Translations under genes and position numbers: made by a program
The notes under the pieces: model-generated
Seen by the model: only the letters and a program-made list of their open reading frames with translations
Told to the model about the DNA's origin: nothing
The model's database searches: none
Part shown: piece by piece, positions 25,941-36,262 of the stretch
Numbering within the stretch: the stretch's first letter is position 1
How the letters are laid out: each line of letters begins with the position of its first letter
NCBI GenBank assembly: GCA_023259035.1
Contig: JAHFRA010000011.1
Coordinates: 1-64,000, forward strand
Origin: Gallionella sp.
GTDB lineage: Bacteria; Pseudomonadota; Gammaproteobacteria; Burkholderiales; Gallionellaceae
Direction of reading: 5' to 3'
Length of the DNA stretch: 64,000 nucleotides

Positions 25941-25985
25941 GTAGCACGGATGAAGCGCAGCGGAATCCGGGAAAGCATCCCGCAA
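25941..25985. repeat. Dispersed hairpin repeat between ntrB and ntrC
   Basis: GTAGCACGGATGAAGCGCAGCGGAATCCGGGAAAGCATCCC, matching a motif I recognise as a common proteobacterial intergenic repeat. Confidence 0.6.
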
Positions 25986-29049: not shown

Positions 29050-30471
29050 CTACGCCAATCTTTTTAGCAGCTTCTCGTGTATCCCGCCAAAGCCGCCGTT
29101 GCTCATCACCAGCAGATGGTCACCGGAGCGTGCGGCGGCGGCGATGGCTTCGATCAATTCATCGAGATCATCCTTCACCACGGCCTTGCCGCCCAGCGGC
29201 GCGAGTGCGACGCGCGCATCCCAGCCGAGGTTGCCGGCGTAGCAGAACACCAGGTCGGCCTCTTTCAGGCTGCCGGGCAACGCATCCTTCATCACGCCCA
29301 GTTTCATCGTGTTGGAGCGCGGCTCCAGCACCGCGAGGATGCGCGATTTGCCGAGCTTGCAACGTAAACCGGCGACAGTGGTGTCGATCGCGGTGGGATG
29401 GTGCGCGAAGTCGTCGTACACGGTGATGCCGTTGACTGTGCCGCGCACTTCCATGCGCCGCTTCACGTTCTTGAATTCGCTCAAGGCTGCCAAGCCTTGC
29501 GCCACCGGCACGCCGACATGACGCGCGGCGGCAAGCGCGGCAAGCGCGTTCATGCGGTTATGTTCGCCGAGCAAATCCCAGTGCAGCGTGCCTTGCACTG
29601 CGCTGTTGAGCGTCACACGATTATCAGCATCAATCTGCCAGCCCTCATCGCTGCCGAACTTCTCTACCGGTGTCCAGCAACCGCGTTGGAGCACGCGCTG
29701 CAATGCTTCCTCGCGTCCGTTGCACACCACCAACCCGTTGCCGGGAACGGTGCGCACCAAGTGGTGAAACTGCGTCTCGATGGCTGCGAGATCGGCAAAG
29801 ATGTCGGCGTGGTCGAATTCGAGATTGTTCAGGATCGCGGTGCGCGGACGGTAGTGCACAAATTTGGAACGCTTGTCGAAGAAGGCGGTATCGTATTCGT
29901 CGGCCTCGATGACAAAGAACGGCGAAATCCCCCCTAGCCCCCCTTTTTCAAAGTGGGGAACGGTTGTGCCGGTGTCATTGGTGTTACCCCCCTTTGAAAA
30001 AGGGGGGCAGGGGGGATTTTGGTTTAACCGCGCCGAGACGCCGAAATTCTGCGGCACGCCGCCGATCAGGAAACCGGGGTTCAGCCCGGCGTATTCCAGT
30101 ATCCACGCCAGCATCGAAGCGGTGCTCGTCTTGCCGTGCGTGCCTGCCACGCCCAGCACCCATTTGTCGCGCAGCAGTGTATCCGCCAGCCATTGCGGGC
30201 CGGAGGCATAGGGCAGGTTGCGGTTGAGAATTTCCTCCATCAGCGGGTTGCCACGCGACACCACATTGCCGATGACGAAAATATCAGGCTTGAGGTTAAG
30301 CTGTTCCACACCAAAGCCTTCGATCAGCTCGATGCCTTGTGCTTCCAGTTGCGTGCTCATCGGCGGATAGACATTGGCATCGCAGCCGGTGACGCGGTAG
30401 CCCGCCTGTTTGGCGATGGCCGCGATGCCGCCCATGAACGTGCCGCAGATGCCGAGAATGTGAATGTGCAT
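29050..30471 (-). CDS. mpl: Murein tripeptide ligase Mpl
   Basis: HILGICGTFMGGIAAIAKQAGYRVTGCDANVYPPMSTQLE, GVAGTHGKTSTASML, FFVIEADEYDTAFFDKRSKFVHYRPRTAILNNLEFDHADIF; in-frame repeat insertion. Confidence 0.95.
   Translation of the reverse strand: MHIHILGICGTFMGGIAAIAKQAGYRVTGCDANVYPPMSTQLEAQGIELIEGFGVEQLNLKPDIFVIGNVVSRGNPLMEEILNRNLPYASGPQWLADTLLRDKWVLGVAGTHGKTSTASMLAWILEYAGLNPGFLIGGVPQNFGVSARLNQNPPCPPFSKGGNTNDTGTTVPHFEKGGLGGISPFFVIEADEYDTAFFDKRSKFVHYRPRTAILNNLEFDHADIFADLAAIETQFHHLVRTVPGNGLVVCNGREEALQRVLQRGCWTPVEKFGSDEGWQIDADNRVTLNSAVQGTLHWDLLGEHNRMNALAALAAARHVGVPVAQGLAALSEFKNVKRRMEVRGTVNGITVYDDFAHHPTAIDTTVAGLRCKLGKSRILAVLEPRSNTMKLGVMKDALPGSLKEADLVFCYAGNLGWDARVALAPLGGKAVVKDDLDELIEAIAAAARSGDHLLVMSNGGFGGIHEKLLKRLA
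29925..30020. repeat. About 96-bp palindromic element inserted in-frame in mpl
   Basis: Arms AAATCCCCCCTAGCCCCCCTTTTTCAAAG (29925-29953) and CTTTGAAAAAGGGGGGCAGGGGGGATTTT (29992-30020). Confidence 0.9.
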
Positions 30472-30514: not shown

Positions 30515-30616
30515 TCCGTTCGTGCCGAGCCTGTCGAAGCATGTGCGGCGCACAGCTATTTCACCCTTCGGCAAAGCCTTTAATCCTGAGCGCGGTCGAA
30601 GGGTCAGGGCGAACGG
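30515..30616. repeat. Dispersed intergenic repeat with imperfect inverted arms
   Basis: CCGTTCGTGCCGAGCCTGTCGAAG ... GAGCGCGGTCGAAGGGTCAGGGCGAACGG. Confidence 0.55.
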
Positions 30617-30623
30617 TTTTCTT

Positions 30624-32347: not shown

Positions 32348-35300
32348 CTAATAGCTCAACACTGGCGCCAGCCAGCGTTCCGCCTCTTCAACACTCCAGC
32401 CTTTGCGCTTGGCGTAGTCCGCCACCTGATCCCTGTCCAGCTTGCCGGTGGCGAAATATTGCGCCTGCGGATGCGCAAAGTAAAAGCCGCTCACGGCTGC
32501 TGTAGGCAGCATCGCGTAGCTTTCGGTGAGTGTGATACCTGCGTTTTCCGGTGCCATCAAGAGTTCAAACAGCGCGCCTTTCTCGGTATGTTCAGGGCAG
32601 GCCGGATAGCCGGGCGCGGGGCGGATGCCGCGATATTGCTCGGCAATCAGCGCATCGTTATCCAGCGTCTCGTCCGCCGCATAGCCCCAGAATTCGCGGC
32701 GCGCGCGCGCGTGCAGCAACTCGGCGAAGGCTTCGGCGAGACGGTCGGCCAGCGACTTGAGCAGGATCGCGTTGTAGTCGTCGTGGCGCTTCTCGAATTC
32801 GGCCACTCGCGCGTCGATGCCGATGCCGGTGGTGACGGCGAACGCGCCGATGTAATCCGCGACCCCTGTTTCCTTCGGCGCGATGAAATCGGCCAGGCAA
32901 TAGTTCGGGATGTTGTCCGGTTTTTTTGATTGCTGGCGCAGGTTGTGCCAAGTCATCGCCACCTTGCTGCGTGTTTCATCGGAGTAGATTTCGATGTCGT
33001 CGCTATTGACGCTGTTCGCCGGGAACAGGCCGAACACGGCATTCGCGGTAAGCCATTTTTCGCCGATGATCTTTTTCAGCATCGCCTGCGCGTCGGCGAA
33101 CAGCTTGCGCGCTTCTTCGCCCACTGCTGCGTCCTGCAATATTCTCGGATAACGCCCGGATAGTTCCCATGCCTGAAAGAACGGCGACCAGTCGATATGT
33201 TCGGCGATCTTGTCCAGCGGGTAATTCTCGAATTTGTGTACGCCCATCAGCCACGGTTTCGGTGGAACGTAAATCCCCCTCAATCCCCCTTTTTGCGAGT
33301 TGGGCGAAAAACCGCCCATCCCTGCCGACTCCGATTCAAAGGGGGAGGCAGATGCCGTGGGAGCGGTGGTCTCCTCCCTTTGCAAAAGGGGGTTGGGATA
33401 ACCAGCGACTTGGCTATCGTCTTTTGATAGCCTAGTCGAATGGCTAGTTGTTTTATCAGGGATTTGCTTTGCCCAGTTTGTTTTCAGCCCATGCGCCCGC
33501 GCCTCGGCCAGCGTGACATACACAGCCTTGCTCTTCTTGCCTTCGTGCTGCTCGCGCGCCGCAGCATAGTCCGCCTTGATGCCCGCGATGTATTCGTCGC
33601 GCAATGTGCCGGAGAGCAGGTTGCTGCACACGCCCACCGCGCGCGACGCATCGGTGACATATACCGTCGCGCCGCTTGGGTAGTTCGGTTCGATCTTCAC
33701 GGCGGTATGTACGCGCGACGTGGTCGCGCCGCCGATCATCAGCGGAATGGTGAAGCCCTGGCGCTGCATCTCTTTCGCCACATGCGCCATTTCTTCCAGC
33801 GACGGCGTGATCAGCCCGGACAGGCCGATGATGTCTGCCTTGTGCTCGCGCGCGGTGTCGAGTATCTGCTGGCATGGCACCATTACGCCCATGTTCACCA
33901 CCTCGAAATTGTTGCACTGCAACACCACGGTGACGATGTTCTTGCCGATGTCGTGCACATCGCCCTTGACCGTCGCCATCACGATCTTGCCCTTGGCGCT
34001 GGTGTTGCCGGTGCGCAGTTTTTCCGCTTCGATATACGGCACCAGATGCGCCACCGCCTGCTTCATCACGCGCGCCGATTTCACCACCTGCGGCAGGAAC
34101 ATCTTGCCCGCGCCGAACAGGTCGCCGACCACGTTCATGCCGGTCATCAGCGGGCCTTCGATCACCTCGACCGGGAATTCCGCCTGGCGGCGCGCTTCTT
34201 CGGTGTCTTCGACAATGTAAGTGGTGATGCCACGCACCAGCGCGTGAGTCAGGCGCTCCTGCACCGTGCCCTTGCGCCATTCCAGATCCTCGACTTGCGC
34301 CTTGCCGCCGCCCTTCACCGTCTCGGCCAGCATCACCAGACGCTCACCCGCATCGGGCCGGTGGTTCAGCACCACATCTTCCACCGCGTCGCGCAATGCG
34401 ATTGGAATTTCCTCGTACACGCCGAGTTGCCCGGCGTTGACGATGCCCATGGTCAGGCCAGCCTTGATTGTGTGGTACAGGAACACGGTATGGATTGCCT
34501 CGCGCACCATCTCGTTGCCACGAAAGCTGAACGACACGTTCGAAACGCCGCCGCTGATCTTGGCGTAGGGCAGATGCTGCTTGATCCAGCGCGTGGCCTC
34601 GATGAAAATCACCGCGTAGTTGTTGTGTTCTTCGATGCCGGTGGCAATCGCAAAAATATTCGGGTCGAAAATAATGTCTTCTGGCGGGAAGCCGACGCGA
34701 TTCACCAGAATGCCATAGCAACGCTGGCATATCTCCGTCTTGCGTTTATAGGTGTCGGCCTGGCCCTGCTCGTCGAACGCCATCACCACCGCCGCCGCGC
34801 CATAGCGGCGCACCAGTGTGGCGTATTTGATGAAATTTGCTTCGCCCTCTTTCAGCGAAATCGAATTGACGATGGCCTTGCCCTGCACGCACTTCAGCCC
34901 TGCCTCGATCACTTCCCACTTGGACGAATCGATCATCAGCGGCACTTTGGAGATGTCCGGCTCGGAGGCGATCAGGTTGAGGAACTTCACCATCGCGGCC
35001 TGCGAATCGAGCATCGCCTCGTCCATGTTGATGTCGATGATCTGCGCGCCGTTCTCCACCTGGTTGCGCGCCACGTCCAGCGCTTGCGCGTAATCGCCGC
35101 TCAGGATCAGACGCGCAAACATCTTCGAGCCGGTGACATTGGTGCGCTCGCCGACATTGACGAACAGCGAGTCATCGCCGACATTGAACGGTTCCAGCCC
35201 GGACAGGCGCAGTTTCTTTTCGATGTCGGGAATGCGGCGCGGCGGCACATCTTTCAGCGCCTCGGCGATGGCTTTAATATGTGCGGGCGACGTGCCGCAA

Positions 35301-36262
35301 CAGCCTCCGGCGATGTTGAGAAAGCCGCTGGTGGCAAATTCTTTTACCAGTCGCGCAGTTTTTTCCGGCAGCTCATCGTAGCCGGTTTCGGACAACGGAT
35401 TGGGCAACCCAGCGTTGGGATGCGCGCTGATATAACAGCTCGCGACGCGCGACAGTTCTTCCACATACGGGCGCATCAGTTCAGCGCCCAGCGCGCAGTT
35501 CAGGCCGATCGACAATGGCTTCGCGTGCGACAGGGAATTCCAGAACGCCTCGGTAGTCTGGCCGGACAGCGTGCGTCCCGAAGCATCGGTGATCGTTCCT
35601 GAAATCATGATCGGCACGCGCACCTTATGTTGCTCGAAATATCGCTCGATTGCAAACAGCGCGGCCTTGGCGTTGAGCGTGTCGAAAATGGTTTCGACCA
35701 TCAAAATATCCGCGCCGCCGTCGAGCAGGCCGCGTATCGCTTCGGTGTAGCTTTCCACCAGTTCGTCGAAGGTGACGTTGCGCGCGCCGGGGTCGTTCAC
35801 GTCCGGCGAGATCGACGCGGTGCGCCCGGTCGGCCCGAGCACGCCCGCGACGAAGCGCGGCTTGTCCCTGGTGGAAAATTCATCGCACAGCCCGCGCGCC
35901 AGCTGCGCACCGGCCATGTTCAACTCGTACACCAGATGCTGCATCTGGTAATCCGCCATCGAGACGGAGTTGGAGTTGAACGTGCAGGTCTCCAGAATAT
36001 CCGCGCCCGCTTCGAGATACTGGCGGTGGATGCCGCCGATAACGTGCGGCTGGGTCAGCAGCAGCAGATCGTTGTTGCCTTTCACATCAATCGTGTGGTC
36101 GGCAAAGGTTTTGCGCGCACCGTTGTAATCGCCGTATAACTCCGTGCCGCGATAATGCGCCTCGGTCAGCTTGTGGCGCTGGATCATCGTGCCCATTGCG
36201 CCATCCAGAATCAGAATGCGTTTTTGCAGCTGCTGCTCAAGCGGGTGGGTGTTGCCGGTCAT
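32348..36262 (-). CDS. metH: Cobalamin-dependent methionine synthase
   Basis: Hcy-binding, pterin-binding, B12 ([17 protein letters not shown]) and SAM activation domains; in-frame insertion near 33271-33460. Confidence 0.97.
33271..33460. repeat. Composite palindromic-repeat insertion within metH
   Basis: AAATCCCCCTCAATCCCCCTTTTTGCGAG / CCCTTTGCAAAAGGGGGTTGGGAT arms plus repeat copy B at 33398-33459. Confidence 0.8.
33398..33459. repeat. 62-bp hairpin-containing repeat, copy B
   Basis: GGCTATC-gtctttt-GATAGCC stem; same length as 6334-6395. Confidence 0.8.

Follow-up and report, generated by a model that had tools for sequence, protein, structure and literature searches.

The window analysed here, a 64,000-nucleotide stretch of DNA from Gallionella sp., raises the question of how a palindromic repeat can lie inside an intact gene and how it came to be there. 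The gene is mpl. In a protein search the nearest named relatives were Sideroxydans, Gallionella and other MAGs of the Gallionellaceae, a family of iron oxidisers, which makes this family the probable source of the window. We describe the insert and its relatives, the nuclease gene with which such palindromes are paired, and the explanations that can be offered for their spread.

The palindromic insert in mpl

The original prediction placed a palindromic repeat wholly inside mpl with no stop or frameshift. We found the repeat at exactly these positions and with this sequence (Table 1), and the reading frame is uninterrupted over its 473 codons. In a profile search the product matched TIGR01081 with 725 bits as well as the Mur ligase domains, and the genome contains a single mpl copy at E <= 1e-50.

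Table 1. Positions of mpl, metH and the parts of their inserts in the window
Feature	Position	Strand	Remark
mpl (UDP-N-acetylmuramate:L-alanyl-gamma-D-glutamyl-meso-diaminopimelate ligase)	29050..30471	-	473 aa; host gene of the insert
Type-A palindrome pair, in frame in mpl	29925..30020		outer tag, hairpin, spacer, hairpin, outer tag
Outer tag AAATCCCCCC	29925..29934		hairpin 1 side of the mpl insert
Hairpin 1, CCCCCCTTTTTCAAAGTGGGG	29938..29958		mpl insert
Inter-hairpin spacer	29959..29986		mpl insert; encodes most of residues 163-172 (NTNDTGTTVP)
Hairpin 2, CCCCCCTTTGAAAAAGGGGGG	29987..30007		mpl insert
Outer tag GGGGGGATTT	30010..30019		hairpin 2 side of the mpl insert
metH, cobalamin-dependent methionine synthase	32348..36262	-	second host gene in the window
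metH in-frame insertion, residues 933-999	33266..33466	-	between the B12-binding and activation domains

The two arms of the insert (29925-29958 and 29987-30020) are inverted, C/G-rich and 85% complementary over 34 nt. The repeat unit, which we call type A, reads AAATCCCCC(C), 3-5 bases, CCCCCTTT, 3 bases, AAAGGGGG; such units usually occur in inverted pairs, with the tags pointing outward or inward. Residues 150-182 of Mpl (NQNPPCPPFSKGGNTNDTGTTVPHFEKGGLGGI) derive from the insert, with SARL before and SPFFVIEADEYD after them. In most of the congeners examined, just two residues separate SAR[L/I] from SPFFVIEADEYD (e.g. SARLTESPFF), as against 33 residues at this place in the window Mpl. Because most congeners have only two residues at the site, the net gain is about 31 residues, the number originally proposed between SARL and FFVIEADEYD. 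A repeat of a further palindromic family (CCTGAGCGCGGTCGAAGG...) is found directly upstream of mpl (30522-30620).

The hairpin core pattern, with up to two mismatches allowed, gave 39 forward matches in the genome versus 5 for the reversed-pattern control, and BLAST returned related palindrome copies at many other genomic places. The mpl insert is therefore not a product of chance. An assembly artefact could be ruled out, since inserts of the same kind occupy the same mpl codons in two independent congeners (G016 and G020). In the AlphaFold2 model of the window Mpl (mean pLDDT 85.5), pLDDT falls below 50 over exactly residues 152-180; this predicted disorder bears out the expectation that the site is a loop. 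The structure 3eag (PDB) aligns to Mpl on either side of the insert gap. Presumably, the insert is translated as about 31 extra residues that are harmless to the host.

On the G-rich strand, the outer tags mirror the purine arm of the hairpin and could provide the third strand of an intrastrand triplex. We scored this mirroring with G-on-G and A/T-on-A rules. The triad rule was perfect in 55 of 66 type-A hairpins, compared with 0.8% after shuffling of the tails, and in 26 of 27 hairpins of another family, B1 (shuffled, <1%). Family E did not follow the rule in the single register tried, which we count against our best explanation. In this symmetry type A agrees with the BoxC/PIT motif, and we class it as a predicted intrastrand-triplex palindrome of that kind. 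With the E. coli motif, triplex formation was shown in isolated single-stranded DNA (Holder et al. 2015, PMC4666352).

At the mpl site, congeners differ. The type-A inserts of G016 and G020 have two and three units, respectively; G018 has a short insert of family E, which is related to type A; and G003 and G023 have an unrelated palindrome (family B, LPSPASGRGVGGEG), all at the same codons. Yet another palindrome-like insert is present at the site in a distant betaproteobacterium (L138). Alignment of Mpl with close relatives, as originally suggested, showed the segment to be missing from most congeners, so it is not universal among the orthologues. In a tree of mpl with the insert removed, the two family-B gains were split by well supported branches, and the three type-A inserts fell in one unresolved six-species group that also includes family E and empty sites. 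The presence of different families at one place argues for tolerance of the loop and not for a shared target sequence. Judged from the alignments and the predicted structure, the mpl loop is a recurrent, tolerated landing site. Comparison of filled with empty mpl sites revealed no visible target-site duplication, and the junctions were strongly diverged; they suggest that a few host bases were lost rather than duplicated.

A comparable class of in-frame palindromic elements had been postulated for this lineage, and copies were indeed found across the genome and in congeners. BLAST and pattern searches located about 17 type-A sites in the genome. In-frame copies lie in mpl, metH, metG, bioF, leuS (two), aceF, a gene for an MmeI-type enzyme (two) and addA; about ten copies are intragenic and others are at gene ends or intergenic. 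The genome showed no further copies of bioF, leuS or metG. The congener comparison of host genes left out the second MmeI-like site and addA; the loops of bioF, leuS and metG were empty, filled by type A, or filled by other repeat families. Among 300 genomes of the order, exact type-A cores occurred in 27 genomes and in 14 of 134 genera, at 1 to 73 copies per positive genome (reversed-pattern control, 0-1).

The metH insertion combines a type-A pair in degenerate form (tag at 33271, hairpin at 33374-33392) with another, nested repeat. Alignment of MetH with PDB 9ssp breaks at query residues 932/1000 and chain residues 946/950. The nested repeat (33394-33466; TTCGACTAGGCTATC...GATAGCCAAGTCGCTGGTTATCCC type with TGATGAAAC ends) looks as if one element had been inserted into another. 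Repeats of this type are also found in the hairpin loops of palindromes near DUF559 genes, in the flanks of L380, L384, L395 and L400.

Pairing of the palindromes with DUF559 genes

The first clue to a partner came from the metG linker of G010, which holds an in-frame DUF559 domain with family B palindromes on both sides. In the genome under study, a DUF559 gene adjoins a type-A pair; its product matched PF04480 with 104 bits and PDB 3hrl with an E-value of 3e-20. A search of 61 genomes of the genus yielded about 70 DUF559 places. Residues E16, E56, D58, H62 and D71 are present in all 61 genus DUF559 proteins, and dN/dS was about 0.07-0.11, the copies inside hrpA and metG included. Given the invariant nuclease residues and these ratios, the nuclease is kept under selection.

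A palindrome of family A, B, E or F lay within 260 bp of the DUF559 gene at 60 of the 61 genus loci examined, and on both sides at 40 of them. Random placements gave 3/400, 18/200 and 32/200, and loci centred on Y1_Tnp genes 0/16; the value of 32/200 is high because the leuS, metG and bioF loci were picked for carrying inserts. Since we delimited the palindrome families visually, on the basis of the first 30 genus DUF559 loci, the tests at the level of the order and the phylum are more independent.

Palindrome labels changed 9 times on the DUF559 tree (106 columns, SH-aLRT support only) versus a mean of 33.2 after shuffling, and type A formed one clade of eight members plus one unlabelled protein. 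The eight genus genomes with a type-A DUF559 contained 3-61 exact type-A cores, and the other 53 had a median of 0 (p 8e-8). In the 300 genomes of the order, the nearest relatives of the type-A DUF559 (at least 58% identity, own protein included) were flanked by type A in 14 of 14 cases. All 14 of their genomes were A-positive, as compared with 13 of the 286 others (p 5e-17). Among the DUF559 loci scored in the order, those of more distant relatives were all without type A. Judged by the DUF559 tree and these genome counts, every palindrome family has a DUF559 clade of its own.

At the level of the phylum, palindromes of the listed families were present at 23 of 30 DUF559 loci, 14 of which had them on both sides, and matching repeats bracketed 16 of the 30 loci versus 0 of 240 controls. 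The seven loci without any listed palindrome count against our best explanation. Type A was present without a close type-A DUF559 in 13 genomes of the order; present dependence is therefore not strict. Two of them, G050 and G194, have 17 and 20 type-A cores and no DUF559 near the type-A clade, possibly as orphaned repeats. Phage records gave few, distant DUF559 matches. The link between DUF559 and the palindromes is an association in genome sequences, which by itself would also fit DUF559 as a passenger. In the parts of the open-access literature on DUF559 accessible to us, no link to palindromic repeats was found, and we regard the pairing, provisionally, as new here.

Palindrome-bracketed DUF559 reading frames also lie in frame inside genes. 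They occupy the same metG linker in G010 and G030 and the same hrpA site in G067, G074 and G075; others lie in a DNA methylase gene (G081) and an asparagine-synthetase-like gene (L476). The names hrpA, methylase and asparagine synthetase are our own reading of the host sequences. The full form of the element is a single gene for a predicted DUF559 (Vsr-like PD-(D/E)XK) nuclease between palindromes, and both this form and the short form are found in frame inside genes.

In E. coli K-12, ycjD, the gene for a DUF559 protein, lies between sapF and fabI, and directly past it is CCCCTCGCCCCTCTGGGGAGAGGGTTAGGGTGAGGGG, a BoxC/triplex copy. The K-12 chromosome has 23 such triplex motifs (PMC4666352). 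A motif within a few hundred bases of ycjD by chance is unlikely (about 0.004 by our estimate). YcjD and a gonococcal DUF559 protein are nearest to the family-B1 DUF559, and B1-like palindromes adjoin both genes. For YcjD, a Vsr-like nuclease function has been predicted (PMC1189080). In a methylase mutant of Caulobacter, the SOS response is caused by the DUF559 protein VsrA (PMC12907096). At L512 the start of ycjD (complement) is overlapped by a nearly perfect inverted repeat, CACCTCATTCTGACAA...TTGTCAGAATGAGGTG, which might hide the start codon. A control search with PF04480 recovered DUF559 only in Caulobacter and not in the control E. coli, even though ycjD of K-12 carries the DUF559 annotation; the strain or a filter may explain this.

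Explanations for the spread of the palindromes

The mpl insert is probably the non-autonomous form of a mobile element with two parts, a DUF559 nuclease gene and its palindromes, and we infer that palindrome pairs lacking the nuclease are passengers of this element. The nuclease would recognise and cut or nick DNA with reference to the palindrome of its own family. As the break is repaired, the palindrome would be copied, with or without the nuclease gene, to a new place or to an empty allele. Selection would then remove out-of-frame or damaging insertions, and in-frame copies in disordered loops would persist.

Spread by a RAYT (Y1 tyrosine transposase), as for REP/BIME repeats of the GTAG type, is suggested by the REPIN-like pairing of the hairpins and by three Y1_Tnp (RAYT-like) genes in the genome (L092, L093 and L094, on contigs C31, C17 and C18). 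However, each of these genes is flanked by GTAG-type repeats of its own instead of type A. Type-A copies are devoid of the GTAG tag, and the bases that separate their tag from the hairpin vary. In a set of more than 60 Y1_Tnp loci, only one, together with a neighbouring locus on the same G050 contig, had type A around it, at a distance of several hundred bases. With other repeats at the Y1_Tnp genes and no type A close by, RAYT was rejected as the type-A partner, and we consider its involvement very improbable. A copy of one of the Y1_Tnp-linked GTAG-type repeats is present in the window at 25941-25971. It is also extremely improbable that the loop insert is functional for Mpl and retained by selection at the protein level. 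The insert has stayed free of stops, but it is missing in most congeners, unrelated inserts take its place in other species, and the model predicts disorder.

Homing alone, in which DUF559 would cut the empty alleles of a small number of conserved genes and the element would be copied into the same site by gene conversion, with little ectopic movement, would account for the in-frame DUF559 genes at one hrpA site in three species and in one metG linker in two. We nevertheless hold it to be unlikely, given the dozens of dispersed copies in some genomes and the unrelated palindrome families that fill one loop across species, which point to loop tolerance and not to one target. Finally, the palindromes might spread with no dedicated enzyme, by replication slippage or break repair through their odd structure, the DUF559 genes being passengers that settled at, or were carried by, such sites. 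Holder et al. (2015, PMC4666352) associated the E. coli motif with instability and saw neither a transposase nor an integrase in its vicinity. Type A, for its part, is abundant in some genomes that lack a close DUF559. Yet a random passenger would not be expected to be flanked near-universally, as DUF559 is and Y1_Tnp is not, nor to show clade-specific pairing, co-occurrence across genomes and strong purifying selection. The enzyme-free explanation seems unlikely, too.

We see an about even chance that DUF559/YcjD proteins are the dedicated mobility enzymes of bacteria-wide triplex-type palindromes, including E. coli BoxC; these would form a transposase-less class whose full and stripped forms sit in frame in essential genes and remodel their loops. 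BoxC/PIT palindromes, known since the 1990s, have had neither an enzyme nor an explanation of how they spread, and the YcjD/DUF559 nucleases are widespread but have no settled role. Their pairing, if true, would explain both, would be testable in E. coli K-12, and would place a second class of enzyme beside the RAYTs for short palindromic repeats. Moreover, in Mpl, aminoacyl-tRNA synthetases and other proteins the same loops have been filled in frame more than once, which gives a natural experiment on the gain of disordered insertions.

Comparison with known repeat systems

The original prediction drew a parallel to the Rickettsia palindromic elements (RPEs). The part concerning in-frame palindromic insertion holds, and kinship does not: the CGTC tag that marks RPE-4 and RPE-6 (PMC3733652) is absent from type-A copies, and RPEs were rejected as relatives on this comparison with the RPE-4 and RPE-6 tags only. 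Like type A, RPEs and intragenic REPs (Di Nocera et al. 2013, PMC3733652) lie in frame in unrelated genes, often at tolerant places; they differ in being CGTC- or GTAG-tagged and in having no reported DUF559 partner. As regards IS-derived MITEs, it is DUF559 and not a transposase that lies between type-A repeats, and the mpl site has no visible duplication, its junctions being diverged.

REPIN/BIME elements and their RAYTs resemble type A in that the hairpins are paired and inverted, a non-autonomous form exists, and copies of the repeat flank the enzyme gene. Unlike them, type A goes with a predicted PD-(D/E)XK nuclease instead of an HUH transposase, is without GTAG and has triplex symmetry. 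YcjD and VsrA, like the type-A partner, belong to PF04480 (Pfam) and have the conserved nuclease residues; they are known as predicted nucleases or as mismatch-repair-like, and the papers searched report no link to palindromic repeats. BoxC/PIT, which occurs in many bacteria as described in PMC4666352, resembles type A in having a C-rich hairpin and, after it, a mirrored G-rich block as the third strand, and in its many copies, single or in inverted pairs. The E. coli motif was described as always intergenic and as having no gene for mobility in its neighbourhood (Holder et al. 2015, PMC4666352), whereas type A lies in frame in genes and is paired with DUF559.
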